DNA from: Desulfovibrio mangrovi
GTDB lineage: Bacteria > Desulfobacterota > Desulfovibrionia > Desulfovibrionales > Desulfovibrionaceae
Direction of reading: 5' to 3'
NCBI RefSeq assembly: GCF_026230175.1
Contig: NZ_CP104208.1
Coordinates: forward strand, 3,410,001-3,474,000
Length of the DNA stretch: 64,000 nt
How positions within the stretch are numbered: position 1 is the first letter of the stretch; each line of letters begins with the position of its first letter. The notes beneath the pieces are model-generated. The model was not told where the DNA came from, did not search any database, and saw only the letters and a list, made by a program, of their open reading frames with translations. Positions 16,651 through 29,790 of this stretch are shown one piece after another. A program made the position numbers and the translations under genes.

Positions 16651-17451
16651 ATGTTGCTTGGAAAAAGCGTCCGTCTGGAACGCATCTTCAACCGCAATAC
16701 TGGCAGAACCATCATTGTACCCATGGATCACGGCGTAACCGTTGGCCCCATCTACGGCCTCGTTGACCTGCCCGGAACCGTGAACAAGGTGGCTGAGGGA
16801 GGCGCAAACGCCGTCCTCATGCACAAGGGACTGCCCCGCTGTACGCATCGCGGCTACGGCAAGGATGTAGGACTCATCGTGCATCTTTCCGCCAGCACGT
16901 CCATTGCCACGCTGCCCAACGCCAAGTCGCTGGTCGGTACGGTGGAAGATGCTCTGCGCCTTGGCGCTGACGCGGTGTCTGTTCACGTTAATCTGGGTGA
17001 CGAGACTGAACGCTACATGCTGGAGGACCTGGGCAAGGTGACCTCCCGTGCGGTAGAGTGGGGTATGCCGGTTCTGGCCATGATGTATGCCCGCGGTCCG
17101 AAAGTGAAAAATGAATTTGATCCGGAGATTATCGCCCACTGCGCCCGCGTGGGTATGGAGCTTGGTGCGGACGTTGTTAAGGTTAATTATACCGGCGATA
17201 TGGACTCTTTTGCCGCCGTATGCGAAGCTTGCTGCGTTCCGATAGTCATAGCGGGTGGTCCGAAGATGGATTCGGATCGCGCGCTTGTTGAAATGGTGCA
17301 TGATTCCGTCAAGGCAGGTGGTGCAGGGCTCTCCATGGGACGCAACGTGTTCCAGCATGCCCGTCCCGACCTGCTTGTGGCGGCGCTTCACGGCGTGGTG
17401 CACAGCGAGTGGACTGTTGATCAGGCAATGGACGTGCTGAACGGCCAATAG
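16651..17451 (+). CDS. 2-amino-3,7-dideoxy-D-threo-hept-6-ulosonate synthase / class I aldolase, copy 1
   Basis: 266-residue TIM-barrel aldolase of the DhnA/ADH-synthase family. Asp26 (VPMDHG), Tyr146 (MMYARGP) and Schiff-base Lys177 (GADVVKVNYTGD) are at the same spacing as the catalytic residues of the Methanocaldococcus enzyme. In the alternative shikimate route this family joins an aspartate-semialdehyde unit to 6-deoxy-5-ketofructose 1-phosphate, ahead of dehydroquinate synthase II, encoded two genes downstream. AGGAGG precedes the ATG. A near-identical-length paralogue follows after 38 bp. One copy may be the synthase and the other may make the ketofructose precursor; sequence alone does not decide. 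Confidence 0.87.
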   Translation: MLLGKSVRLERIFNRNTGRTIIVPMDHGVTVGPIYGLVDLPGTVNKVAEGGANAVLMHKGLPRCTHRGYGKDVGLIVHLSASTSIATLPNAKSLVGTVEDALRLGADAVSVHVNLGDETERYMLEDLGKVTSRAVEWGMPVLAMMYARGPKVKNEFDPEIIAHCARVGMELGADVVKVNYTGDMDSFAAVCEACCVPIVIAGGPKMDSDRALVEMVHDSVKAGGAGLSMGRNVFQHARPDLLVAALHGVVHSEWTVDQAMDVLNGQ

Positions 17452-17489
17452 CCCGCCAGTGTGAAACTATATATTACGAGGGATTTCAG

Positions 17490-18290
17490 ATGCATATTGG
17501 CAAAAAGATCAGAATGGAGCGTATTTTCAACCGTCTTACCAGCCGTACCATCATCGTGCCGCTGGACCACGGCGTAACCGTCGGCCCCATCGAAGGGCTG
17601 GTGGACATGCGCGAGACCGTGAACAGCATCGCCGAAGGGGGGGTAGATGCCGTTCTCATGCACAAGGGTCTTGTGCGTTGCGGACACCGTGAAGGCGGCA
17701 AGGATGTGGGCCTGATCGTGCACCTTTCCAGCTCTACCTCCATGTCTCCCATGCCCAACGCCAAGTCGCTGACCGCCTCGGTGGAAGACGCCATCAAGCA
17801 TGGCGCGGACGGTGTTTCCGTGCATGTGAACCTTGGTGACGATACGGAACGCGAAATGCTTGCCGACCTTGGCAAGGTTGCGGCGCAGGCTTCCGACTGG
17901 GGCATTCCCCTGCTCGCCATGATGTACGCCCGCGGACCCAAGGTTCAGAACCAGTTCGATCCCACCGTGGTGGCGCACTGCGCCCGCGTGGCCGTGGAGC
18001 TTGGTGCGGACATCGTCAAGGTGCCTTACACCGGCGATATGGACACCTTCTCCCGCGTGGTCGATTCCACCTGCGTGCCCGTCGTTATCGCGGGCGGCCC
18101 CAAGATGGATTCCACCCGCGAGTTCATCCAGATGGTGCACGATTCCGTACGCGCTGGTGGTGCCGGTCTTTCCGTCGGCCGGAACATTTTCCAGCACAGG
18201 CGTACCCCACAACTGGTCAAGGCGCTTCGCGGTGTTGTCCACGAAGACTGGGATGTTGAACAGGCCATTGAAATAGTTGGCGAAGACTAG
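17490..18290 (+). CDS. ADH-synthase / class I aldolase, copy 2
   Basis: Also 266 residues and collinear with copy 1 without gaps through the active site: Asp26, Tyr146 and Lys177 (GADIVKVPYTGD) are all present. Differences concentrate in the variable segments (for example MSPMPNAK against IATLPNAK), so this is an older duplication, not a recent copy. It lies directly before dehydroquinate synthase II. Its role is one of the two aldol steps of the non-DAHP shikimate entry. GAGGGA serves as ribosome site. Confidence 0.87.
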   Translation: MHIGKKIRMERIFNRLTSRTIIVPLDHGVTVGPIEGLVDMRETVNSIAEGGVDAVLMHKGLVRCGHREGGKDVGLIVHLSSSTSMSPMPNAKSLTASVEDAIKHGADGVSVHVNLGDDTEREMLADLGKVAAQASDWGIPLLAMMYARGPKVQNQFDPTVVAHCARVAVELGADIVKVPYTGDMDTFSRVVDSTCVPVVIAGGPKMDSTREFIQMVHDSVRAGGAGLSVGRNIFQHRRTPQLVKALRGVVHEDWDVEQAIEIVGED

Positions 18291-18312
18291 TTTTTACAAA
18301 TTTGGAAAAATC

Positions 18313-19284
18313 ATGAAAAAGGTACTGTTCAAGAGCGTCCCGTTCAATAAGGAGCATATTACGCTTGCTCTGGAATCCGGTGTGGATGCCATCATCGTGG
18401 CCGCGGGTGACGTGAAGAAGGTGGAAAGCCTTGCACGCTGCACCGTACTTGCCGAAGAGGCCATGCCCGTCATCGCCTTCGCATCCAAGAAGGATGAAGA
18501 GGAGGCAACGGCCCGTCTGGTAAAGGGCGAGAATGTTGCCATTGCGCGCGGGTGGGAGATCATCCCCATTGAAAACCTGCTGGCGCAGTCCGATAACGTG
18601 ACCGTGGAAGTGGCGACCCTTGATGAGGCGAAGCTGGCTGCGGGAATTCTTGAACGCGGGGTCAACGCGGTTGTGGTGCTCCCCGAAGGCGTGGAGGAGC
18701 TGAAGCAGATCGTGGCTGAACTCAAGCTGTCTCAGGGCACGCTGGAACTGGTGCCCGCCACCGTTACCACCGTGCAGAACGTAGGTCTCGGACATCGCGT
18801 GTGCGTGGACACCATGTCCGTGATGAAGACCGGTCAGGGTATGCTGGTGGGGAACTCCAGCGCCTTCACCTTCCTTGTCAATGCGGAGACCGAGCGCAAC
18901 GAATACGTGGCCGCCCGGCCCTTCCGCATCAATGCCGGTGCCGTGCACGCCTATGCGGTGATGCCCGGCGACCGTACCACCTACCTTGAAGAGCTTTCGT
19001 CCGGCGACGAGGTGCTCATCGTGAATCACGATGGCTCCACTTCTCTGGCAACGATAGGACGTTGCAAGGTAGAGGTCCGTCCCATGCTGCTCATCAAGGC
19101 CAAGGTCGGCGACGTGGAAGGCGCAGTGTTCCTGCAGAACGCGGAAACCATCCGCGTGGTGCGCAAGAACGGTTCGCCCGTCAGCGTGGTGTCTTTGAAG
19201 GAAGGCGACGAAATTCTGGTGCGTACCGATGTGGCAGGCCGCCATTTCGGCATGCGTATTCAGGAAGAGATCAAGGAAGGCTAG
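18313..19284 (+). CDS. aroB': 3-dehydroquinate synthase II
   Basis: 323 residues, homologous to the archaeal-type DHQ synthase (MJ1249 family) and unrelated to classical AroB. Features include KSVPFNKEHITLALESGVD at the N-terminus, IARGWEIIPIENLLAQ, VCVDTMSVMKTGQGMLVGNSS, and FRINAGAVHAYAVMPGDRTTYLEEL. It performs the NAD-dependent oxidative deamination and cyclisation of ADH to 3-dehydroquinate. The ATG at 18313 is chosen; an in-frame TTG at 18277 would overlap the previous gene and add residues absent from the family. Together with the two upstream aldolases it replaces DAHP synthase and AroB. Confidence 0.92.
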   Translation: MKKVLFKSVPFNKEHITLALESGVDAIIVAAGDVKKVESLARCTVLAEEAMPVIAFASKKDEEEATARLVKGENVAIARGWEIIPIENLLAQSDNVTVEVATLDEAKLAAGILERGVNAVVVLPEGVEELKQIVAELKLSQGTLELVPATVTTVQNVGLGHRVCVDTMSVMKTGQGMLVGNSSAFTFLVNAETERNEYVAARPFRINAGAVHAYAVMPGDRTTYLEELSSGDEVLIVNHDGSTSLATIGRCKVEVRPMLLIKAKVGDVEGAVFLQNAETIRVVRKNGSPVSVVSLKEGDEILVRTDVAGRHFGMRIQEEIKEG

Positions 19285-19286
19285 CC

Positions 19287-20456
19287 ATGCCCGATTCCAT
19301 ATCTGACAAGACCGAAGACAATCCGCGCATGCAAGAGGTGCGCAGCGAGATCGACGAGACGGACCAGCAGATACTCCAACTGCTGAACCACCGCGCCTCG
19401 CTGAGCCTTGAGGTGGGAAAGCTCAAGCGTGGAAAGCAGGATGTGATCTTCAAGCCCTTCCGCGAAAAGGAAGTGCTTGAGAACCTGCGGCGCGGGAATT
19501 CCGGCCCCATCCCCTTCGAGCATGTCAACGCCATCTATCGCGAGATCTTTTCCTCCTCCCGCGCCCTGCAGCGCCCGCAACGCGTTGCCTACCTCGGGCC
19601 GGAGGGAACCTTCTCCTACTTTGCGGGTGTGGAGTTCCTCGGCAAATCCGTGGAATACCTGCCCCAGAAGAATCTGCACGAGGTATTCCGCGCGGTGCAT
19701 TCCCGTGAGTGCGAGCTGGGGGTCATTCCGCTCGAGAACTCGCTGGAAGGTTCCGTGGGCCAGAGCCTCGACCTGTTTCTGGATTTCGAGTTGTACATTC
19801 AGGCGGAACTGTTCTGCCGTATAAGCCACAGTCTGCTCACCCGCGAGAGTTCACTGGCGGACATCACCACCGTGTATTCCCATCCCCAGCCTCTGGGGCA
19901 GTGCGGAAGCTGGTTGCGGGCGAACCTGCCCAACGCGCAGATCGTGCCCACCGAGAGCACGGCGGCCGCCGCGCGGCGGGTTCGCGACGAGAAGGGCGCA
20001 GCCGCCATCGGGCACGGCAAGCTTGCCGATCTGCTGGATCTGAAGGTGCTTGCACGCGGTATAGAGAACATGCCGGACAACTGGACGCGCTTTGTCATCA
20101 TCGGGCCCAAGCCGTCCGACGGGGAAGGGCGGGACAAGACCTCCCTGCTGTTCTCCCTGCCGGACAAGCCCGGTTCGCTGGTCAGCGTGCTGCAGGTGAT
20201 GGCCGTGGAAGGCCTGAACATGAAAAAGCTGGAGTCTCGCCCCATGCGGGGTGAAAAATGGCGCTACGTCTTTTTCGTGGACGTGGAGTCCGACCTCACC
20301 GGCGAGCAGTATGAGGCCCTGCTCAAGGAACTGCGCGGGCATTGTCAGTCCCTGCGTATTCTGGGCAGTTATCCGGCCGGACCGTATATCGACGTGTCCG
20401 CACGGGTGGATGAAAAGAACCTCCAGTCCGTGCCGAAGGCCGGCGAGGCCAAATAG
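19287..20456 (+). CDS. pheA: Bifunctional chorismate mutase / prephenate dehydratase
   Basis: 389 residues in three modules. An AroQ-type chorismate mutase covers about 12-95 (RSEIDETDQQILQLLNHRA). The dehydratase covers about 105-280, with YLGPEGTFSYFA, IPLENSLEGSVG and the catalytic T-R-F segment NWTRFVIIG. A C-terminal ACT domain (about 295-365, LPDKPGSLVSVLQVMAVEGLN) provides Phe feedback inhibition. The chain converts chorismate to phenylpyruvate. The ATG at 19287 is 2 bp after the aroB' stop. A 256-bp gap with a repeat hairpin separates it from aroA. Confidence 0.95.
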   Translation: MPDSISDKTEDNPRMQEVRSEIDETDQQILQLLNHRASLSLEVGKLKRGKQDVIFKPFREKEVLENLRRGNSGPIPFEHVNAIYREIFSSSRALQRPQRVAYLGPEGTFSYFAGVEFLGKSVEYLPQKNLHEVFRAVHSRECELGVIPLENSLEGSVGQSLDLFLDFELYIQAELFCRISHSLLTRESSLADITTVYSHPQPLGQCGSWLRANLPNAQIVPTESTAAAARRVRDEKGAAAIGHGKLADLLDLKVLARGIENMPDNWTRFVIIGPKPSDGEGRDKTSLLFSLPDKPGSLVSVLQVMAVEGLNMKKLESRPMRGEKWRYVFFVDVESDLTGEQYEALLKELRGHCQSLRILGSYPAGPYIDVSARVDEKNLQSVPKAGEAK

Positions 20457-20599
20457 CTGCGGGTGATGTTGTGAAATGCATGCTGTACCTCAGGCAGCGT
20501 GAGACGCGTGTTTTCTGAGGGCGGTTACGGCGTATCCCATCTCTCTGGCGTTAAGCCTGACGGAAATTGAACCGCGCTTGAATTTGACGCGGATACTTA

Positions 20600-20643
20600 G
20601 CTTGTACGTAAACGGGTTTCCAAAGGGCCGGTTGGCCCTTTGG
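20600..20643 (+). repeat. Intra-operon repeat hairpin, copy 1 (before aroA)
   Basis: The core begins GCTTGTACGT and ends in a perfect 10-bp inverted repeat, CCAAAGGGCC/GGCCCTTTGG (20620-20629, 20634-20643). The same layout recurs at 27687-27729 before trpB. Both copies lie in the only long gaps inside the operon's gene runs, 70-90 bp before a start codon. No T-run follows, so a role in mRNA processing or stability, or simply a dispersed repeat, is more likely than termination. Confidence 0.7.
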
Positions 20644-20712
20644 CCCGCGGAGCGAAAAATCCTCAGCCCTCAACCATCGCCCGCAGGCCACGCCCATTAT
20701 AAGGAATATGTC

Positions 20713-22038
20713 ATGAGCAAAGTGATTGAAGTAGAAGCCCCATCGTCCAAGTCGGTCTCGCACCGCATGGTTATCGGTGCGGCGTTGGGCGTGGGCGAGT
20801 CGCGTCTTGCCAATGTGCTTGAGAGCGACGACCTGAAGCGGACCATGGACATCATGCAGGCCTGCGGTGCCCGCATCGAGCGGCTGGGCGAAGGCCTTTA
20901 CGCCATCAGCGGCGTGGCGGGTACCCCCGCAGGCGGCCGCGATGAGCCTGTTTCCTGCTATGTGGCCGAATCCGGCACCACCTGTCGCCTCATGACCGCC
21001 ATTGTGGCGGCGGGGCTCGGCAGATTCCGCATTCACGGTGCGCCGCGCATGCACGAACGCCCCATCGGCGAGCTGGTCATGGCCCTGCGTATGCTGAACA
21101 TCGGCGTGGAATGGGAAGGCAAGACCGGTTATCCCCCTGTGATCATTGATACCAACGGCATGCCCGGCGGTGAAGTGAACATAGGCATGGACGAGTCCAG
21201 CCAGTACCTGTCCGGTCTGCTGCTGGCTGCACCGCTCGGCAAGACCCTGACCATCAACGTAACCGGTAAGAAGGTCGTGAGCTGGCCCTACGTGGGCCTG
21301 ACCCTGAAGGCCATGGAAGAGTTCGGTCACAAATTCCGCGTCGAAATGCTGGAAGACGGCGAGTGGGTGGAAAAGGACTGGCGCACCATCCGCAACGTCA
21401 TTCCGGGCAAGACCCGTTTCGTTGTCAAGCCGGGCTTCTATCGTGCCGGTGATTACCGTGTGGAAGGGGACTGGTCCAACGCCTCCTACTTCCTCGGTGC
21501 CGGTGCTGTCGGTCCCAATCCCATACGTATTTCCGGCCTGCGGGCGGACTCGCTGCAGGGCGACAAGGCCATGCTGAAGATTCTTCAGGACATGGGCGCG
21601 CAGGTTGATATTGAGCCCGACGCCGTGACGGTTCACCCCTCAAAGCTCAAGGGTATTACAGTGGACATGGGCGATTGTCCCGACATCGTGCCCACCGTGG
21701 CGGCTGTTGCCGCGTATGCGGAAGGCCCCACCACCGTGACCAACGTGGCGCATCTGCGCATCAAGGAATGTGACCGCCTTGCCGGTCCTGCCGCGCAGCT
21801 TGCCAAGGCCGGCATAAAGGTGGAGGTGCATGAGGACGGCCTGACCGTGCATCCTGCCGGTCGCGAGTCCATCACGGCTCCGGAGGGAACGGTGTTCGAG
21901 ACCTACGGCGATCACCGCATGGCCATGAGTCTCTCGCTGCTCGGCTTTGCAGGCGTGAAGGTTGAGCTGGACGATCCCAAGTGCGTCGGCAAGTCCTTCC
22001 CGAGCTTCTGGCGCAAGTGGAGCAAGGTGGTCGCATGA
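20713..22038 (+). CDS. aroA: 5-enolpyruvylshikimate-3-phosphate synthase
   Basis: 441 residues. The N-terminal SSKSVSHRMVIGAAL carries the substrate-binding Lys-Ser pair. The PEP-site loop ESGTTCRLM, the MDESSQYLSGLLLA segment, DCPDIVPTVAAVAAYA, RIKECDRL and the C-terminal TYGDHRMAMSLSLLG complete the family set. It catalyses transfer of enolpyruvyl to shikimate-3-phosphate. In the PEP loop Leu follows the Arg where E. coli has Pro, as is normal in Bacillus-type enzymes. The ATG at 20713 has AAGGAA upstream; longer in-frame starts would run through the repeat hairpin. Its stop overlaps tyrA by 4 bp. Confidence 0.95.
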   Translation: MSKVIEVEAPSSKSVSHRMVIGAALGVGESRLANVLESDDLKRTMDIMQACGARIERLGEGLYAISGVAGTPAGGRDEPVSCYVAESGTTCRLMTAIVAAGLGRFRIHGAPRMHERPIGELVMALRMLNIGVEWEGKTGYPPVIIDTNGMPGGEVNIGMDESSQYLSGLLLAAPLGKTLTINVTGKKVVSWPYVGLTLKAMEEFGHKFRVEMLEDGEWVEKDWRTIRNVIPGKTRFVVKPGFYRAGDYRVEGDWSNASYFLGAGAVGPNPIRISGLRADSLQGDKAMLKILQDMGAQVDIEPDAVTVHPSKLKGITVDMGDCPDIVPTVAAVAAYAEGPTTVTNVAHLRIKECDRLAGPAAQLAKAGIKVEVHEDGLTVHPAGRESITAPEGTVFETYGDHRMAMSLSLLGFAGVKVELDDPKCVGKSFPSFWRKWSKVVA

Positions 22039-22838
22039 GTCCGGATGGTTTTGAAGGCGACTTTAGCGGCGGCAAGATTGCCGTCATCGGGTCCAACGGT
22101 CGCATGGGGCGGATGCTTTGCAACCGTTTCCGTGCGGCGGGCTATGAGGTTGCGGAGCTTGACCAGCCTTTGACAAATACGTCACTTTCAGCTGGACTGT
22201 CAGGGGCGAGTGTGGTACTGCTGTGCATTCCTGCGGCAGCCTTTGTCACTGTTCTGCAACAAATCAGTGGTATTCTTCAGCCTCCGCAGGTGTTGGTGGA
22301 TATAACTTCGGTAAAGGTACAACCCATGCATCAGATGCAACTCGCCTACAACGGCCCCATCGTGGGTACTCATCCTCTCTTCGGTCCCGAGCCGAAGGCG
22401 GACGAGGTGCGTGTTGCCGTTACCCCTGCTGAAGGGACTGACGAGAAGCATGCGGCCATGGTGGAAGAGCTGTTCGAACGCATCGGCTGCGAACCCTTCC
22501 GCACCACTGCGGAAGCGCATGACGAAGCCGCCGCCCTCATTCAGGGGTTGAACTTCATCACCACCGTTTCCTACCTTGCCACCTTGGCGCACAAGGAAGA
22601 GATCACGCCGTATCTCACGCCTTCCTTCCAGCGTCGTCTGGATGCCGCCAAGAAGATGATGACTGAGGACGCAGAGCTGTTCGAAGGGCTGTTTGAGGCC
22701 AATCCCAGCTCCCATAACGCCGTCCGTTCCTTCCGTAATATGCTGAACATTGCCGCCGGTGGCGACATCAACGTGCTCGTTGAGCGCGCTCTTTGGTGGT
22801 GGCGTGAGAATAATGATACGGGAGGGGTGCGTCATTAA
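22035..22838 (+). CDS. tyrA: Prephenate dehydrogenase whose 3' end carries a trp attenuator
   Basis: 267 residues. A Rossmann NAD site KIAVIGSNGRMGRML lies near residues 13-27, then VLVDITSVK, the catalytic-His region GTHPLFGPEP, and the helical dimerisation half (AALIQGLNFITTVSYLATL). It oxidatively decarboxylates prephenate toward tyrosine; there is no fused mutase or ACT domain. The ATG overlaps the aroA stop. The C-terminus reads ALWWWRENNDTGGVRH: three consecutive Trp codons (22794-22802) stand 36 bases before the stop. A strong terminator follows 31 bp after the stop. The coding sequence 22819-22831 is complementary to that terminator (see the separate entry), so this gene end may serve as leader peptide for trpEGDCFBA. 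Confidence 0.93.
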   Translation: MSPDGFEGDFSGGKIAVIGSNGRMGRMLCNRFRAAGYEVAELDQPLTNTSLSAGLSGASVVLLCIPAAAFVTVLQQISGILQPPQVLVDITSVKVQPMHQMQLAYNGPIVGTHPLFGPEPKADEVRVAVTPAEGTDEKHAAMVEELFERIGCEPFRTTAEAHDEAAALIQGLNFITTVSYLATLAHKEEITPYLTPSFQRRLDAAKKMMTEDAELFEGLFEANPSSHNAVRSFRNMLNIAAGGDINVLVERALWWWRENNDTGGVRH

Positions 22839-22904
22839 CTGACCACTGGCATAGAGTACAGAGTTCTCAAACGCCGCGTTCCTCCCGGAACGCGGCGTTT
22901 TTTT
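22819..22904 (+). promoter_or_regulatory. Trp attenuator formed by the 3' end of tyrA and the tyrA-trpE terminator
   Basis: Terminator: 13-bp perfect stem 22870-22882 with 22887-22899, TCCC loop, T-run 22898-22904. Antiterminator: 22819-22831, inside the last codons of tyrA, pairs with 22875-22887 in 13 contiguous base pairs, three of them G.U. The Trp codons 22794-22802 end 16 bases before the antiterminator strand, and the stop codon (22836-22838) is close enough that a terminating ribosome would cover it. This matches the geometry of Trp-codon attenuation. Confidence 0.75.
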
Positions 22905-23102
22905 ATCACTTCGGAAAATCGTGGATAAGAGCAATATGGTGCAAGAACCGGAATGCCCATCCCGCTAGACCGAAGACCGGAACGACAGAGGATGACATCG
23001 TTTTCGGGGCAGGGGCCGCTGGTCCCTGCGGGATGTGGACAAGAAGTCCACCGCCGGAGCGGAATAGATACAAACACAACAGGACGTCAGGGAGACAACC
23101 GA

Positions 23103-24518
23103 ATGAACGTACTACTCAAGCAGACAGGCCAATGGCTGGCGGCGGATATTCAGACGCCCATCAGCCTGTTCCTCGGACTGGTGGGCTCAGGGCAGGGTTT
23201 TCTGCTCGAAAGCGCCGAGGTGGATGGCCGGTGGGGCCGCTACAGTGTGATCGGGTTCAACTTCCTGCTCCGTCTCGGCTGCAAGGAAGGCAAGCTGGAG
23301 GTCGCATCGCGCGACAAACGTTTGGATTTTTTGAAGCAATATGAAGGCATGGACTTCATGGATGGCGTGCGCGCCGTGAACAAGGCCGTGACCGTGGAGG
23401 CTGCGGAGGGTTTTGACAAGCTGCCGCCCATCGCACGCGGTCTGTTCGGCTATTTCGGGTACGGCGCTGCGGGCATGTTCGAGCCCAAGCTGCGCAACGT
23501 GCTACCGCCGGAAAACGCGGAAGCCTGCCTGGTGCTGCCGGGCACCGTCGTGCTCTTTGACCATCTGTACAACAAGCTCTGTCTGCTCACGCTGGCAGAC
23601 GGCCTGAACGTACGTATGGACCGCTCCGCAGTGGAGCGCAAGGCCGAGCCGCCTGACGTGGGACCCATTACCACCATTCCGGACCGCGCCACCTACCTGC
23701 GCAACGTGGACCGTGTGAAGGAACTCATCCGGCAGGGCGAGGCCATTCAGGTGGTTATTTCCACCCGTTTCCAGGCTTCGTTCTCCGGCGAGCCCTTTGT
23801 GCTGTATCGCCGCCTGCGCCAGATCAACCCTTCGCCGTACATGTTCTTCATGCGTCTGCCCGGCGTGAGCCTTATCGGTTCTTCGCCCGAGGTGCTGGTG
23901 CGTAGCAGTCATGGTGAAGTGGAAGTGTGCCCCATCGCGGGAACCCGCCCGCGCGGTGCTTCCGAAACGGAAGACCTCGCTCTTGCGGAAGACCTGAAGG
24001 CCGATCCCAAGGAGCAGGCCGAACACGTGATGCTGGTGGACCTTGGCCGCAACGACGTGGGCCGCGTGTCCGCTCCCGGTACCGTGTCTGTGGACAAGTA
24101 CATGCAGGTGGAACGTTTCAGCCACGTGATGCACATGACCTCCTATGTGAAGGGCAAGCTGCAGGAAGGCAAGGATGCGCTGGACGTGCTGGCCGCCACC
24201 TTCCCCGCAGGCACCGTGAGCGGTGCGCCCAAGGTGCGCGCCATGGAGATCATCGCTGATATCGAAGCCCTGCAGCGCGGTCCCTATGCCGGTGCGGTGG
24301 GCTGGATGAGTCTTGATAACGACAACGCCGACCTGGATACCGGCATTCTCATCCGTACCATGTGGGTGCGTGACGGATTGGTGCAGTGGCAGTGCGGTGC
24401 GGGCATCGTGCACGATTCCGTTCCGGAGAAGGAATGGGAGGAATGCCACAACAAGGCGCGGGCTCTGAAGGTCACCATCAACGGAACGGGAGACGGCGAT
24501 GTTTTTGCTTATAGATAA
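23103..24518 (+). CDS. trpE: Anthranilate synthase component I
   Basis: 471 residues. The feedback-site motif LLESAEVDGRWGRYS lies near residue 38, the chorismate-binding core has VCPIAGTRPRGA and the metal-binding LVDLGRNDVGRV, then ATFPAGTVSGAPKVRAMEII and YAGAVGWM. It forms anthranilate from chorismate with ammonia supplied by TrpG. The ATG at 23103 follows a GGGAGA site and a 198-bp region after the attenuator terminator in which no gene is seen. It overlaps trpG by 20 bp. The intact LLES element predicts Trp inhibition of the enzyme. Confidence 0.95.
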   Translation: MNVLLKQTGQWLAADIQTPISLFLGLVGSGQGFLLESAEVDGRWGRYSVIGFNFLLRLGCKEGKLEVASRDKRLDFLKQYEGMDFMDGVRAVNKAVTVEAAEGFDKLPPIARGLFGYFGYGAAGMFEPKLRNVLPPENAEACLVLPGTVVLFDHLYNKLCLLTLADGLNVRMDRSAVERKAEPPDVGPITTIPDRATYLRNVDRVKELIRQGEAIQVVISTRFQASFSGEPFVLYRRLRQINPSPYMFFMRLPGVSLIGSSPEVLVRSSHGEVEVCPIAGTRPRGASETEDLALAEDLKADPKEQAEHVMLVDLGRNDVGRVSAPGTVSVDKYMQVERFSHVMHMTSYVKGKLQEGKDALDVLAATFPAGTVSGAPKVRAMEIIADIEALQRGPYAGAVGWMSLDNDNADLDTGILIRTMWVRDGLVQWQCGAGIVHDSVPEKEWEECHNKARALKVTINGTGDGDVFAYR

Positions 24519-25083
24519 CTATGATTCCTTCACCTTCAATCTGGTGCAGGCCTTTCAGAAGATCGGAAGGAATCCGGAAGTATACAAGAACGACGATCCG
24601 CGCATTCTGGAGCTGGCGGAAAGCGGCACGCTGGAAATGGTGTGCATTTCCCCTGGCCCCAGCAATCCGCAGAACGCGGGGCTGTGCCTTGAGTTCCTGA
24701 AGCGTCTGCCCAAGACCGTGCCCGTGCTGGGCGTGTGTCTGGGACACCAGATACTGGGCTACTTTGCCGGAGCCAGCGTGGTCATCGGGCCGCGCATCAT
24801 GCACGGCAAGTCCTCCATGCTGGAGCATGACGGCACGGGCATGTTCACCAACCTCGCCTCGCCCATGCAGATAGGCCGCTACCACTCCCTTATCGTGAAT
24901 GTGCATGAGGCACCGGAACTGCTGGAAGCCACCTCGCACGTCCACACGGATGACGGGCAACTTGAAGTCATGTCGCTGCGCTACAAGGATCGTCCGTGGG
25001 TCGGTGTGCAGTTCCACCCCGAATCGGTACTGACGCCGGAAGGGGAGACCCTGCTGGCGAATTTTCCTGAGAATATTGTGTAA
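24499..25083 (+). CDS. trpG: Anthranilate synthase component II (glutamine amidotransferase)
   Basis: 194 residues, a class I amidotransferase. The oxyanion segment is SPGPSNP, the nucleophile Cys is in PVLGVCLGHQILGY (near residue 79), and the His-Glu of the triad is in VQFHPESVLTPEG. It releases ammonia from glutamine for TrpE. It starts inside the end of trpE (20-bp overlap), a typical coupling for stoichiometric subunits. It is not fused to TrpD. Confidence 0.95.
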   Translation: MFLLIDNYDSFTFNLVQAFQKIGRNPEVYKNDDPRILELAESGTLEMVCISPGPSNPQNAGLCLEFLKRLPKTVPVLGVCLGHQILGYFAGASVVIGPRIMHGKSSMLEHDGTGMFTNLASPMQIGRYHSLIVNVHEAPELLEATSHVHTDDGQLEVMSLRYKDRPWVGVQFHPESVLTPEGETLLANFPENIV

Positions 25084-25093
25084 GGAGGCTACT

Positions 25094-26089
25094 GTGAAAA
25101 CCGTGGAGATTCTCGAAACTCTGGCGGCGGGGAACGACCTTTCCGCAGAGATGGCGACGGTGGCCTTCTCCAGACTCATGGATGGCGAGATGAGTCCCGT
25201 ACAGGCGGGCTCCTTCCTCATGGGACTGCGGCAGAAAGGTGAAACCGCGCTGGAAATGGCCACCGCTGTTTCCGCGTGTCTGGAACGTGCCCGTCTGGTG
25301 ACGGGGCTTACCGGCAAGCGCATAGACCCCGTGGGGACAGGCGGCGACGGCAAGAACAGCTTCAACTGCTCCACGACAACGGCGCTGACGCTGGCGGGCA
25401 TGGGCTATCAGGTGACCAAGCATGGTAACAGGGCGGTGTCGTCCTCCTGTGGCAGTGCGGACATCGTGGACGGCATGGGATTGCCTATGCTGCAGGAGCC
25501 GCAGGAGCTTCGGGCGGAATTGGCAAAGCGCAACTTCGTGTTTCTTTTTGCCCCCTACTTCCATCCCGCGTTCAAGCACATCATGCCCGTGCGGCAGGAA
25601 CTGGGCATGCGTACCATGTTCAACCTGCTCGGGCCGCTGCTCAACCCCGCGCGCCCCACGCATCAGCTGCTGGGTGTTGCCCGTCCCGAGTACATGCAGC
25701 TCATGGCTGACGCGCTGGCGCTTTCGGGCATCGAACGTGCGGCCGTGGTGCATGGTGCCGGAGGGTACGACGAACTGACTCCCATGGGGCCTGCGCAGGT
25801 CATCATGGTGGAAGGCGGGAAGACCCGCGCGACAACCATCGACCCCGCAGCCTGCGGCATTGTTCCCTGCAAGCCCGAAGAGCTGGTCGTTACCGGTAAG
25901 GAACAGGGGCTGGCCGTGGTGAAGGAACTGCTGGGCGGCGCTGGCCCCGCAGCCATGCGGGAAATGCTGATTCTCAACGTGGGCGTGGCCGTGCACCTGC
26001 TGGAAGACGGCAAGGAACTGGCGCAGTGCATGATCATGGCGCGCGAGGCGGTCATGGCCGGTGTCGGCGGGAAGGTGATCCATGCTTGA
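25094..26089 (+). CDS. trpD: Anthranilate phosphoribosyltransferase
   Basis: 331 residues. The PRPP-binding DPVGTGGDGKNSFNCST lies near residue 78, then the anthranilate-site KHGNRAVSSSCGSADI, RQELGMRTMFNLLGPLLNP, and GGYDELTPMGP. Translation most likely begins at GTG 25094, 6 bases after an AAGGAGG site that overlaps the trpG stop. It transfers the phosphoribosyl group to anthranilate. The stop overlaps trpC by 8 bp. Confidence 0.94.
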   Translation: MKTVEILETLAAGNDLSAEMATVAFSRLMDGEMSPVQAGSFLMGLRQKGETALEMATAVSACLERARLVTGLTGKRIDPVGTGGDGKNSFNCSTTTALTLAGMGYQVTKHGNRAVSSSCGSADIVDGMGLPMLQEPQELRAELAKRNFVFLFAPYFHPAFKHIMPVRQELGMRTMFNLLGPLLNPARPTHQLLGVARPEYMQLMADALALSGIERAAVVHGAGGYDELTPMGPAQVIMVEGGKTRATTIDPAACGIVPCKPEELVVTGKEQGLAVVKELLGGAGPAAMREMLILNVGVAVHLLEDGKELAQCMIMAREAVMAGVGGKVIHA

Positions 26090-26843
26090 GCGTTTCCGCA
26101 TCGCCAAGGCCGAAGAGATTCGCACCCTTGAATCTCTTTCCGCGCAGAAGGCCATGCCCGCGCCTTTCGCGGGTTCCCGTCCTTCGTTCAGCGCTGCGCT
26201 GAAGAAGGAAGGATTGGCGGCCATCTGCGAATACAAGCGGGCGTCCCCCTCCAAGGGGGAGATCGAGATGGGGCTGTCTCCCGAAGAGGTGGCGCGCCAG
26301 TATCAGGAAGGCGGGGCCGCCGCCCTGTCCGTGCTGACGGAAGAGGTCTATTTCAAGGGCGACCTTGGGTTTCTGGACCGCATGACCTTTACGGGGTTGC
26401 CCCTGCTGCGCAAGGACTTCCTCTTCCATCCCCTGCAGATCGCGCGCACCGCAGCAACACCCGCATCCGCGCTGCTGCTCATCGTGCGCATGTTCGATGA
26501 CGCGGCACTGCTCAGGGAACTGCTGGACATGACCCATGCCATGGGCATGGAGGCGGTGGTGGAGGTGTTCGATGAACGAGATCTGGACATGGCCCGCGAG
26601 GTAGGCTCGCGGATCATACAGGTGAACAACAGAAATCTGGATACATTGCAAACTGACCTTGCCATTTGCGAGCGACTGGTGCAGGACCGTAGCAGAGCTG
26701 AAGTTTGGATAGCCGCCAGCGGTATATCCACCCCGGAGCACAGACGGTATGTCGAGTCTCTGGGATACGACGCAATGCTGGTGGGCACCGCGCTCATGCA
26801 GGGAGGCGCGCCGCGAAAGGCGCTGGAAGCCCTGCTTGCGTAG
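26082..26843 (+). CDS. trpC: Indole-3-glycerol phosphate synthase
   Basis: 253-residue TIM barrel. Catalytic segments are the phosphate-binding EYKRASPSKG (Lys near 52), SVLTEEVYFKGD, LLRKDFLFHPLQI (general-acid Lys), AVVEVFDERDL, IQVNNRNLDTL and IAASGISTPE. It closes the indole ring from CdRP. Its beginning overlaps trpD by 8 bp. It is a separate polypeptide from TrpF, unlike the enterobacterial TrpCF fusion. Confidence 0.94.
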   Translation: MLERFRIAKAEEIRTLESLSAQKAMPAPFAGSRPSFSAALKKEGLAAICEYKRASPSKGEIEMGLSPEEVARQYQEGGAAALSVLTEEVYFKGDLGFLDRMTFTGLPLLRKDFLFHPLQIARTAATPASALLLIVRMFDDAALLRELLDMTHAMGMEAVVEVFDERDLDMAREVGSRIIQVNNRNLDTLQTDLAICERLVQDRSRAEVWIAASGISTPEHRRYVESLGYDAMLVGTALMQGGAPRKALEALLA

Positions 26844-26879
26844 GGAAGCCCCCGTTGCAGGCAAGGAGAACAGGAAATC

Positions 26880-27518
26880 ATGTTGGATAAGGAAATCTTC
26901 GTTAAGGTGTGCGGCATAACCAGCCAGCACGATGCCGATCTCTGTGTGCGGTATGATGCGGACCTCATCGGGTTCATCTTCCATGAGAAGAGCCCCCGCA
27001 ACATGACCGTGGAAAAGGTGCGCGCCATTGAAACGCCCTCGCTTATGCGTACCGGCGTGTTCGTGGATCAGACTGTGGACGAGGTGAAGCGCATCATGCA
27101 GCACGCCCGTCTGAATCTGGCGCAGCTGCACGGCGATCAGGACATCGAATTCTGCAAGGTATTGGGCAAGACGCGCGTCATGAAGGTTTTCTGGCCGGAA
27201 CGGTATGCCACGCGGCAGGATCTGGAAGCGGACATGGAGCGTTTTGCCCCGTACTCCCGCTTCTATCTCCTGGAAGCAGGCTCCGCAGGCGGAGGCCACG
27301 GCAAGGTACAGGACTGGTCCTTCCTTGCCGGACTGCGTGGCATCAAGACGTGGTTCATCGCAGGCGGCCTTGGGCCGGATACGCTCAAGCAGGCCATCAT
27401 GGGCTGCAACCCCTGCGGCATCGACCTCAATTCCGGTGTGGAAAGCGCTCCCGGCATCAAGAGCGAAGAAAAGCTCAAGGCCGTGTTCGACATGATTCAT
27501 AATCCGCTGGTGGGATAG
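26880..27518 (+). CDS. trpF: Phosphoribosylanthranilate isomerase
   Basis: 212-residue TIM barrel. The catalytic Cys is in VKVCGITSQHDA near residue 11, followed by DLIGFIFHEKSPRNM, GVFVDQTVDEV, LAQLHGDQD, and the catalytic Asp/phosphate segment FIAGGLGPDTL and GIDLNSGVESAPGIKS. It converts PRA to CdRP between the TrpD and TrpC steps. The 36-bp gap after trpC contains an AAGGAG site. A 301-bp gap with a repeat hairpin follows before trpB. Confidence 0.95.
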   Translation: MLDKEIFVKVCGITSQHDADLCVRYDADLIGFIFHEKSPRNMTVEKVRAIETPSLMRTGVFVDQTVDEVKRIMQHARLNLAQLHGDQDIEFCKVLGKTRVMKVFWPERYATRQDLEADMERFAPYSRFYLLEAGSAGGGHGKVQDWSFLAGLRGIKTWFIAGGLGPDTLKQAIMGCNPCGIDLNSGVESAPGIKSEEKLKAVFDMIHNPLVG

Positions 27519-27819
27519 ACGGGAAACGTCGGAGGCGAGGCATCTTGTCTCCGGCGCGCAGGGCGCTGCCCTGTACCTTGATAAGCGAGATACGTCCGTC
27601 GTTGGACAGGCTGTGTAGCTTCACACCTTGTGCATTGTTTCAAGGTGGGGAGCTTGTCCGCACTGCCAGTCTGACGCAGACGGCGGGCTTGTACGTGAAA
27701 GGGGTTCCAAAGGGGAGTTTCCCCTTTGGTCTTGGCGAAGCGCTTTGTACAGAGGCGCCGCAGGCACAACAACTCAACCACGACGCAGGTCTTCTCAAAC
27801 TTCAGCAAACGAGCAGATC
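27519..27819 (+). other. Intra-operon gap between trpF and trpB
   Basis: 301 bp without a gene. The only clear structure is the repeat hairpin at 27687-27729. No promoter or T-run terminator was evident, so trpBA are probably read from the same transcript. Confidence 0.55.
27687..27729 (+). repeat. Intra-operon repeat hairpin, copy 2 (before trpB)
   Basis: Begins GCTTGTACGT and contains the perfect 9-bp inverted repeat CCAAAGGGG/CCCCTTTGG (27707-27715, 27721-27729). It matches copy 1 (20600-20643) in order and spacing of its parts, but the stem bases next to the loop differ in a compensated way, so pairing is preserved. Confidence 0.7.
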
Positions 27820-29013
27820 ATGAAAAAAGGATACTTCGGCGACTTCGGCGGCCAGTTTGTGGCGGAATTGCTTATTCCCCCGCTGCGCGAGCTGGAGCAC
27901 GCCCTTGAAACCATAGTTCCCTCCCCCGAGTTTCAGGCCGAGTTCTCGGCATTGCTGCGAGACTACGTGGGCCGCAAGAGCCCGTTGACCCATTGTCCGA
28001 CCTTGTCGAAGGAACTGGGCTTCAACCTGTGGCTCAAGCGTGAGGATTTGAACCATACCGGTTCGCACAAGATCAACAATACTCTCGGTCAGGCGCTGCT
28101 GACCAAATACATGGGCAAGCCCGCCATGCTGACCGAGACCGGTGCAGGCATGAACGGCGTGGCCACCGCCACGGCGGCCCGTGCGCTGGACCTTGACTGC
28201 ATCGTGTTCATGGGCGCGACGGACGTTGCCCGCCAATCGCACAACGTGCGGCGCATGCAGCTGCTTGGTGCGGAGATCGTACCCGTGCAGAACGGCACCA
28301 AGACCCTGAAGGACGCCATCAACGAGGCGTTGCGCTACTGGATTGCCGAGCAGCGTACGCACCACTACTGCTTCGGCACGGCGGCAGGCCCGCACCCCTT
28401 CCCCACGCTGGTGCGCGAGTTCCAGTCCGTTGTGGGCCGCGAGGCGCGTGAGCAGATTCTGGAAAAGACGGGCGAGCTGCCCTATGCCGTGGTTGCCTGC
28501 GTGGGCGGTGGCTCCAACGCCATCGGCGCGTTCCATGCCTTTGTGCCGGACGAGTCCGTGCGTCTTGTAGGTGTGGAGGCTGCAGGCACCGGCGAACCGG
28601 GATGCTACAACTCTGCGCCGCTCAACCTTGGCTCGCGCGGCGTGCTGCATGGGCAGATGACCATGCTGCTGCAGGACGAGGACGGCCAGATCCTGCCTTC
28701 GCACTCTGTTGCGGCGGGACTGGACTACCCCGGCGTCGGGCCGGAGCATGCCCACCTGCACGATTCCGGCCGTGCCCACTATGGCACCGTCAATGATGCG
28801 CAGGCGCTGAAGGCTTTCATGACCCTTACCCGTTCCGAGGGCATCATGCCCGCGCTGGAAAGCTCGCACGCTGTTGCGTGGGTGCTGGAAAACAGGGACC
28901 GGATTCCGAAGGGGGCCAACGTCATCGTCAACCTTTCCGGTCGCGGCGACAAGGACATGGACATCATTGAAGAGCACCTCGGTGCACAGCCCGTGCACGG
29001 CAGGAAAGGGTAG
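27820..29013 (+). CDS. trpB: Tryptophan synthase beta subunit with variant active-site loop
   Basis: 397 residues. The PLP lysine is in HTGSHKINNTLGQA, the phosphate loop is CVGGGSNAIGAF, and the gating region is SVAAGLDYPGVGPEHAHL. The alpha-carboxylate loop, strictly ETGAGQHG in the usual TrpB1 enzymes, reads ETGAGMNG (residues 106-113), replacing Gln and His by Met and Asn. Other catalytic residues are kept and TrpA follows 9 bp downstream, so it should still condense indole with serine. The ATG at 27820 is preferred since upstream in-frame codons run through the repeat hairpin and are not TrpB-like. Confidence 0.94.
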   Translation: MKKGYFGDFGGQFVAELLIPPLRELEHALETIVPSPEFQAEFSALLRDYVGRKSPLTHCPTLSKELGFNLWLKREDLNHTGSHKINNTLGQALLTKYMGKPAMLTETGAGMNGVATATAARALDLDCIVFMGATDVARQSHNVRRMQLLGAEIVPVQNGTKTLKDAINEALRYWIAEQRTHHYCFGTAAGPHPFPTLVREFQSVVGREAREQILEKTGELPYAVVACVGGGSNAIGAFHAFVPDESVRLVGVEAAGTGEPGCYNSAPLNLGSRGVLHGQMTMLLQDEDGQILPSHSVAAGLDYPGVGPEHAHLHDSGRAHYGTVNDAQALKAFMTLTRSEGIMPALESSHAVAWVLENRDRIPKGANVIVNLSGRGDKDMDIIEEHLGAQPVHGRKG

Positions 29014-29022
29014 GGTGGCAGC

Positions 29023-29790
29023 ATGACGACTTCAAAACTGACGGAACGTATCCGCAAGGCAAACGCCGCCGGCCGCAAGGCGCTTATTCCCTTCATTCCC
29101 GGCGGGTTCCCCGACCTTGAACAGTTCTGGACGCACCTTGAGGCGCTGGATGCCGGCGGGGCGGACATCATCGAAGTGGGCGTGCCCTTCTCCGATCCCT
29201 GCGCCGATGGTCCCGTAGTGGAAAAGGCTTCCATTCAGGCGTTGGAGGCGGGCGTATCGCTCAAGTGGTTGTTGAACGGCCTGAAGGCCCGTGCTGGCCG
29301 TTTTCAGGCCGAGCTGGTGCTGATGGGCTATCTGAATCCCTTCCTGCAGTACGGGTTTGAGAAGCTGGCGGAAGACGCTGCCGCTGCAGGCGTTTCCGGG
29401 TTCATCATCCCCGACCTGCCGCTGGATGAGGACGCCCCCTATCGTGCGGTTCTACAAGGCAAGGGTATGGCCCTTGTCCCGTTGGTGGGCCTGAATACCG
29501 ACCTTGAACGCATGAAGGCCTATGCGGCTGTTGCGAAGGGATATGTGTATGTGGTTTCGGTGCTGGGTACCACCGGCGCGCGCGAAAGCTTCCCTGCGGA
29601 ACTGGCGGATGCGCTGGCCCGTGCACGCGAGGCATTTGATCTGCCCATCGCGCTGGGCTTCGGCATCAAGGAGCCCGCACAGCTTGAGGTATTCGGCGAT
29701 TCCATCGATGCAGTCATCTTCGGCAGTGCGCTGATCACGCATATCCGTGAAACAGGCAGCGCGAAGGCGTTTATGGCCCGCTGGGCCTAG
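29023..29790 (+). CDS. trpA: Tryptophan synthase alpha subunit
   Basis: 255-residue TIM barrel. The catalytic Glu is in DIIEVGVPFSDP (near 51) and the Asp in CADGPVVEKAS (near 62), with FIIPDLPLDE, GYVYVVSVLGTTGAR and ALGFGIKEPAQ. It splits indole-3-glycerol phosphate and channels indole to TrpB. Strand 1 reads PFIPGGFP where ITAGYP-like sequences are usual. It is the last gene of the supraoperon and is followed by a terminator 22 bp downstream. Confidence 0.95.
   Translation: MTTSKLTERIRKANAAGRKALIPFIPGGFPDLEQFWTHLEALDAGGADIIEVGVPFSDPCADGPVVEKASIQALEAGVSLKWLLNGLKARAGRFQAELVLMGYLNPFLQYGFEKLAEDAAAAGVSGFIIPDLPLDEDAPYRAVLQGKGMALVPLVGLNTDLERMKAYAAVAKGYVYVVSVLGTTGARESFPAELADALARAREAFDLPIALGFGIKEPAQLEVFGDSIDAVIFGSALITHIRETGSAKAFMARWA

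Follow-up and report, generated by a model that had tools for sequence, protein, structure and literature searches.

Can the last codons of an enzyme gene serve as the leader peptide of a tryptophan attenuator? The question is raised by the junction between tyrA and trpE in the window, by which we mean the whole stretch of 64,000 nucleotides analysed here, which belongs to a genome of 3.95 Mb in a single contig. Escherichia coli trpL (RF00513) is a ribosome-mediated attenuator with a 14-residue leader peptide made for regulation, and attenuator leaders are generally viewed as short peptides of this kind. An earlier note, made from the sequence alone, had claimed that the C-terminus of TyrA is the sensor of a Trp attenuator for trpEGDCFBA. 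We find this claim supported by the parts of the element, their mutual exclusivity, covariation, spacing and distribution, and a synonymous-site bias, all of which are shown computationally. It is very likely that the 3' end of tyrA is the leader ORF of a ribosome-mediated transcription attenuator; the response to Trp is still an inference. The mechanism is the classical one; what sets this case apart is that an enzyme gene acts as the leader ORF.

The gene cluster around the tyrA-trpE junction

All of the features described here lie on the + strand. The tyrA ORF (22035-22838, 267 codons), whose assignment is also supported by relatives, encodes a member of the prephenate dehydrogenase family; its best match to the NCBIfam prephenate dehydrogenase models (E 4e-33) remains below the curated cut-offs, and the TyrA of the Halodesulfovibrio sp. 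SZUA-473 MAG is 82% identical to it. As read directly from the sequence, the ATG at 22035 overlaps the aroA stop. The C-terminal residues are ...VERALWWWRENNDTGGVRH*. The upstream aromatic genes (16651-22038), supported by ORFs and model matches, are two ADH synthase paralogues, 3-dehydroquinate synthase II, chorismate mutase-prephenate dehydratase and, last, aroA.

The first gene of the unit proposed to be regulated is trpE (23103-24518; ORF; TIGR00564 E 1e-136, below the curated cut-off), which is separated from the T-run of the terminator by a spacer of 198 nt (22905-23102). No sigma70-like promoter was found in 22700-23150, where 0.2 would be expected by chance. The following block (24499-29790) contains the ORFs of trpG (24499-25083) and trpD (25076-26089), both with model support, of trpC (26082-26843), with model support below the cut-off, and of what we take to be trpF (26880-27518), trpB (about 27820-29013) and trpA (29023-29790), assigned from their sequence without a model scan. 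No match to the Trp repressor, TrpR, was found in the same genome. In D. vulgaris, a tryptophan operon of 12 genes has been described (PMC3431258).

The two ADH (2-amino-3,7-dideoxy-D-threo-hept-6-ulosonate) synthase paralogues of the aromatic cluster 5' of tyrA stand in tandem (16651-17451 and 17490-18290).

Parts and folding of the element in the window

Three consecutive Trp codons, TGG TGG TGG, are read directly at 22794-22802 and form the putative sensor. Segment 2, the antiterminator strand (22819-22831), lies inside the tyrA coding region, in the codons for T-G-G-V-R, and is followed by the TAA stop codon (22836-22838), where a ribosome would be expected to cover it, judging from its footprint. 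Segment 3 (22869-22882) is the 5' arm of the terminator and, from 22875 into the loop, also the partner of segment 2. The rest of the terminator (22883-22904) consists of the loop (22883-22886), segment 4 or 3' arm (22887-22900) and the T-run to 22904. Its stem (22869-22882/22887-22900) has 14 bp and -25.5 kcal/mol. Segment 2 pairs with 22875-22887 without a gap and with three G.U pairs, a duplex to which RNAduplex assigns -19.5 kcal/mol and 12 continuous pairs. Of the earlier claims, the three TGG codons and the gapless pairing held; a 13-bp terminator with a T-run, placed at 22870-22899, held in part, lying inside the real 14-bp stem; and the claim that the spacing fits attenuation held as far as the segment positions go, the footprint being taken from general knowledge.

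A folding check had been proposed together with these claims; run by ribosome position, on WWW or at the stop codon, it gave two alternative structures. When the window RNA is free from 22815 to the loop (ribosome on Trp), 11-12 antiterminator pairs and no terminator are formed; when it is free from 22850 (ribosome at the stop), the 14-bp terminator forms, as it likewise does in the full RNA without a ribosome. After completion of the hairpin, a free segment 2 no longer keeps the terminator from winning over the antiterminator, which means that the switch must work kinetically. Classical attenuators are likewise assumed to be kinetic. As for a candidate 1:2 protector or pause hairpin, other hairpins do fold in the window, and the consensus fold contains the terminator only; conservation of such a hairpin is not shown.

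The region 22785-22910 folds better than 200/200 dinucleotide shuffles (z -3.57), an excess that is owed mostly to the terminator. The antiterminator pairing is equalled by 13 of 300 leader shuffles and is therefore only suggestive in the single window sequence; it gains its weight because relatives keep the pairing through compensating change. The element has the defining features of this class of attenuators: consecutive Trp codons within an ORF that is translated, tyrA being conserved as a protein, a Rho-independent terminator before trpE and a conserved antiterminator that excludes it. Its spacing is also suitable, in that a stall on Trp would free segment 2 and a ribosome at the stop would cover it, given the footprint size of general knowledge. 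The criterion that is not met is the short dedicated leader peptide, the leader ORF being tyrA with its 267 codons.

Distribution of the terminator among relatives

TyrA matches were obtained in 132 of 149 genomes sampled from the family and in 139 of 150 sampled from the order. We analysed 200 loci (130/132 from the family, 48/50 from five other families, 21/22 further ones from the first family, and one named MAG), L141, L202, and L203 having been removed as repeat genomes before the terminators were counted. The loci were sorted into three classes according to the position of trpE: separated from tyrA by a gap of more than 40 nt, abutting or overlapping tyrA, or not present in the examined stretch. 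A terminator was called when a hairpin under -13 kcal/mol with a T-run started within 60 nt of the tyrA stop. Counts across the TyrA loci take in related genomes.

The terminator is found at 99 of the 115 loci with a gap, in 25 genera and six families, at 0/19 loci where trpE abuts or overlaps tyrA, and at 5/66 loci without trpE; these five are L147, at a contig end, and L137-L139 and L050, from genera g40 and g26. The energies range from -15.5 to -35.9 kcal/mol, with a median of -22.3 kcal/mol. Unlike WWW, the three consecutive Trp residues of the TyrA tail, the terminator is thus nearly confined to gapped tyrA-trpE junctions, and the arrangement is order-wide, which goes beyond what the earlier note had claimed. 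From the 3' arm of the terminator to trpE, the distance is less than 60 nt in 51/99 loci, where a separate promoter would hardly fit, if at all, and at its minimum only 21 nt (L179), so that transcription of trp must pass the terminator, which implies a conditional one.

A terminator was not called at 16 of the 115 gapped junctions, 7 of which have WWW. L087, which has stem mismatches, was missed by a stricter terminator finder and recovered by the looser version. L078 was scored as terminator-less for its weak T-run, and the covariance model places an element there (E 4e-7).

Some terminator-less gaps have features of their own. By eye, those of L036, L037, L051, L083, L095, and L099 (g10, g14, g22) are G+C-rich, and the g14 gaps show a hairpin immediately after the tyrA stop, without a T-run; another type of control is possible in these three genera. 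L025 and L026 (g11) retain WWW, followed by a gap of about 100 nt with what looks by eye like a hairpin, CCGGCCGCC, and no T-run, which could conceivably be a translational control of trpE.

Covariation of the two pairings

Both pairings covary in the relatives, as checked at the suggestion of the earlier note. In a MAFFT alignment of 48 distinct elements (51 less 3 duplicates) from 13 genera of the family, made without structure fitting, the 13-pair antiterminator shows 45 cells with a two-sided change, compared with 18.5 +- 6.3 after shuffling (reached in 0/500 shuffles). Sliding the pairing by 1 to 3 columns gives only 12 to 31 such cells, and 77.1% of the antiterminator cells pair versus 36 to 52% in the slid registers. 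There is no excess over the shuffles in the number of pairs with a two-sided change (6; 79/500 as high) or of pair types (16; 420/500 as high), and the pairs at the helix ends are often broken. By every measure, the helix of the terminator outdoes that of the antiterminator, with 89 two-sided-change cells versus 27.8 after shuffling. Examples of antiterminator pairings are GGACGCGGC with GCCGCGTCC (g29), GGGTGCGGC with GCCGCACCC (g5), and GGAGAAGTGC with GCACTTCTC (g1).

We also used an alignment-free test, in which leader i is paired with arm j for one random locus per genus, over 25 genera of six families and 5 draws. Own leader-arm pairs have mean energies of -22.6 to -23.8 kcal/mol versus -17.8 to -18.9 kcal/mol for swapped pairs, an advantage of 4 to 5 kcal/mol, and the observed sum was reached in 0/20,000 permutations in each of the 5 draws. 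Leaders pair best with their own arm, out of the 25, in just 7 to 11 genera per draw, the median rank of that arm being 2-3. This version supersedes an earlier duplex test with one representative per genus and 13 genera, in which 0/20,000 permutations reached the observed value. Shuffles of single leaders give a genus mean z of -2.4, and a few loci have weak antiterminators that shuffles equal more often (54 and 49 of 300 in g3, 45 in L019, and 29 in L067).

Spacing and synonymous codon choice

The longest antiterminator run begins 17-23 nt (10th to 90th percentile; sd 3.2) past the last Trp codon. Relative to the tyrA stop, its start varies from -20 to +11 (sd 8.8), segment 2 being coding in some genera and beginning at or just past the stop codon in others. 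The distance of segment 2 is fixed to the Trp codons and not to the stop, which is the requirement of a stall-sensing device; this is shown as spacing, and the stalling is inferred. A G-rich segment is present at the expected place in 90/99 attenuator loci versus 11/45 other loci with WWW, a count which omits L147 and L078.

In attenuator loci where segment 2 is coding, 128 of 142 tail Gly codons are GGG or GGA, compared with 205 of 518 in the up to 120 codons that precede the tail in each of these genes. The split is complete in g38, with 14:0 in the tail versus 0:28 upstream; in g53, g54, and g56, the upstream Gly codons too are mostly GGG or GGA. The other loci show a weaker shift (63/116 in the tail versus 192/559 upstream).

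The WWW tail as sensor or protein feature

WWW is found in 97/99 attenuator loci, the exceptions being L008, in which one Trp codon is lost, and L145, which has WWF. It is also found in 47/101 non-attenuator loci, including 35/66 without trpE downstream, and WWW alone was accordingly rejected as an attenuator marker. The prediction, proposed as a check on the original claim, that the Trp codons occur only where trpE follows therefore failed. The claim was to be refuted by WWW in TyrA without trp downstream together with an absence of covariation; the former occurred and the latter did not.

The pattern A-x-x-W-x, which requires the middle Trp and allows other small residues for A, matches 98/99 attenuator tails and 95/101 others. 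Among the matched tails, the first Trp is present in 96/98 attenuator loci versus 48/95 others (22 of these 48 belong to genus g40), and the third in 97/98 versus 78/95. Some of these rows are perhaps out of register; both g52 loci are, although they have WWW. Tails without an attenuator keep A-x-x-W-(W/F/Y/L), which indicates that part of WWW is a protein feature. Outside the attenuator, WWW looks like a remnant or like a protein feature, the latter in part.

On a tree of 89 TyrA stretches with the tail removed, the attenuator label needs 14 changes. The link between attenuator and WWW rests there on 5 supported independent pairs (L147 and L078 excluded), of which a mean of 2.6 agree, 0.0 oppose and 2.4 are tied (median p 0.25). 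The direction is the expected one, and the pairs are too few.

Proposed mechanism and alternative explanations

With ample Trp-tRNA, ribosomes completing tyrA would pass WWW and arrive at the stop codon, where they would cover segment 2, so that the 3:4 terminator would form and transcription would end before trpE. With scarce Trp-tRNA, the ribosome would stall on WWW and leave segment 2, about 17-23 nt onward, free to pair with segment 3 before segment 4 exists, and polymerase would enter trpE. tyrA and the genes preceding it would be transcribed in both states. The stalling on Trp, the limits of the footprint, the kinetic trapping and the Trp dependence are inferred, and we found no expression or Trp-starvation data for the tyrA-trpE junction. 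RNA-seq of D. hydrothermalis (Table 1 of PMC4162548) lists a fall of trpE, trpG, and trpD at 10 versus 0.1 MPa and no change of tyrA, possibly a hint of separate control; in another comparison of the same study, trpE/G/D and tyrA fall together.

The plainest alternative is an ordinary operon terminator after tyrA, with trpE having its own promoter and WWW being merely a conserved TyrA C-terminus. Genes are commonly followed by terminators, 47/101 non-attenuator loci retain WWW, and in the window 198 nt lie between the T-run and trpE. This reading is nevertheless very unlikely, given that no abutting junction has the terminator and few loci without a following trpE do, that it ends less than 60 nt before trpE in 51/99 loci and that its 5' arm covaries with the tyrA tail, in addition to the lack of a promoter-like site in 22700-23150 and the Gly codon bias of the tail. 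We reject it on distribution, spacing and covariation.

The 2:3 pairing could also be real and respond to the general translation of tyrA, through coupling or polarity, rather than to the charging of Trp-tRNA. The structure does need a translating ribosome, and it would react if translation close to the tail stalled or ceased for whatever reason. Against this speak the three Trp codons in 97/99 loci, at a nearly constant distance from segment 2, the trp genes as target, the frequent loss of the first Trp where the attenuator is missing, and the WW or WWW of the separate leader ORFs described below, and we judge a general signal to be highly improbable. Attenuation through a protein or a tRNA, like TRAP or a T-box, has in its favour that the trp operons of Bacillus use such systems. 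It can be almost ruled out, as the element lies in translated sequence with Trp codons, and no Rfam family, T-box included, matched at its gathering score in 22600-23300 or in 12 loci; the TRAP genes were outside this search.

Relation to known attenuators

The element resembles E. coli trpL in its Trp codons, its mutually exclusive antiterminator and terminator, similar distances, and the trp operon as target, and differs from it in that the leader is provided by the 3' end of an enzyme gene of 267 codons and the regulated unit lies within a larger aromatic operon. The Rfam model of the Trp leader, RF00513, has no match at E up to 10 in 22600-23300 or at E up to 1 in the 12 loci, and T-boxes are not among the Rfam matches in either set. 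Two matches below the gathering score, RF01065 (E 0.11, the best in the window) and RF02951 (E 0.41, in the scan of the 12 loci), were taken as chance. In Bacillus subtilis, the trp operon inside the aro supraoperon uses TRAP. There too, the attenuator sits behind an aromatic gene of the supraoperon and ahead of trpE; the difference is that it is protein-mediated, whereas the one proposed here is ribosome-mediated.

For the aromatic supraoperon of D. vulgaris, a putative attenuator ahead of aroA' has been listed from Merino's database (Table 7 of PMC1173090). It belongs to the same gene cluster but lies at the cluster head, and neither a tyrA-trpE attenuator nor Trp codons are mentioned in the sections bearing on it. 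Rfam motifs have been scanned in 10 Desulfovibrionales genomes (PMC3766115). We found no description of a trp attenuator within tyrA in the literature searched, which was limited to titles and the openings of abstracts, so that an earlier mention is not excluded.

If the proposal is true, the last codons of an enzyme are a sensor, giving Trp-specific control in a Phe/Tyr/Trp operon without a repressor or a second promoter, and placing a constraint on the synonymous sites of the enzyme gene. Attenuator searches confined to intergenic regions or short ORFs, as in PMC2965389, would miss this class, and other amino-acid operons may therefore hide similar cases.

Separate leaders and the origin of the tyrA-embedded element

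A covariance model built solely from the tyrA-embedded copies of the family matches 68 of 297 phylum genomes at 0.001 or better. Among the 30 loci examined from this search, 2 are tyrA-embedded, 7 belong to g40, and 21 lie outside the order. In 18 of these 21, a short ORF with consecutive Trp codons is found at the start of the match, with trpE behind it in 12 and trpD in 2. The model matches elements with separate leader ORFs over their full length, with E down to 3e-8 outside the order. Separate leader ORFs elsewhere in the phylum do the same job, which also was not part of the initial claim. L221, L226, and L230, which lack a Trp-codon ORF at the expected place, were treated as chance matches.

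In L211, L224, and L227, tyrA is directly upstream of the leader and the trp genes and ends before the leader ORF, with -35/-10-like boxes, recognised by eye, between tyrA and the leader. The distance is larger in L278, where about 1.25 kb and another ORF separate the end of tyrA from the leader. Of the TyrA matches in 97 genomes outside the order that have one, none reaches beyond query residue 251, WWW being residues 254-256; the BLAST match runs further in L280 and L224, yet TyrA ends there without WWW. Within the family, 16 matches located apart from tyrA were examined. Of these, 13 stand ahead of trpE and contain a WWW ORF, without any visible tyrA; L275-L277, for which no trp gene was seen, were treated as chance. 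Seven of these 13 relocated leaders have at most 44 codons (e.g. L263, MSYSFLSQPVRFWWWRVADAKGGVRPM) and the others up to 180, counted from stop to stop with start codons undetermined; the seven g40 elements have short leaders too. The separate leaders of other Desulfobacterota and of Desulfovibrionaceae with relocated trp genes share WW or WWW, the G-rich segment, the terminator, the trp genes and the same model with the tyrA-embedded element. They differ in that their ORFs are not continuous with tyrA and, in L211, L224, and L227, have promoter-like boxes upstream.

Separate leader ORFs occur in other parts of the phylum and, within the family, with relocated trp genes. This suggests that the capture of trpL by tyrA took place at the base of the order; the simplest history that we infer is a single capture followed by later release or loss. 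In a bolder form, the ancestor of the Desulfovibrionales joined a stand-alone trpL, previously upstream of trpE, in frame to the C-terminal end of TyrA; where trp moved, the attenuator regained a start codon and TyrA keeps a decaying WWW, and elsewhere the attenuator was lost. We lean towards this reading as a whole, by a small margin. If capture is true, one stretch of DNA is at once enzyme tail, amino-acid sensor and antiterminator, and the tyrA attenuator offers a test of the origin and loss of leader peptides.

The opposing view is that there was no capture, the aromatic C-terminal end of tyrA having been co-opted de novo beside trpE, with the stand-alone trpL being convergent. It is favoured by the attenuator-less TyrA tails, which still end like A-x-x-W-(W/F/Y/L), by the functional constraint that makes Trp attenuators alike, by the f1 relatives in which trp has moved, whose leaders by eye differ from each other and from TyrA before WWW, and by the ORF between tyrA and the leader in L278. 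Against it are the full-length matches of the model to separate-leader elements (E down to 3e-8 outside the order), the finding that L211, L224, and L227 have tyrA immediately 5' of the leader and the trp genes, and a WWWR...GG tail which, by eye, is common to both. We regard co-option as possible and as less likely than capture.

Four loci, L212, L216, L220, and L231, have Trp-codon leader ORFs and no trp gene in the examined stretch, that of L220 being near a contig end. In genus g42 (L076, L077, L079, L081, L130), TyrA continues beyond WWW for about 30 further residues, and trp is located elsewhere with its own leader.
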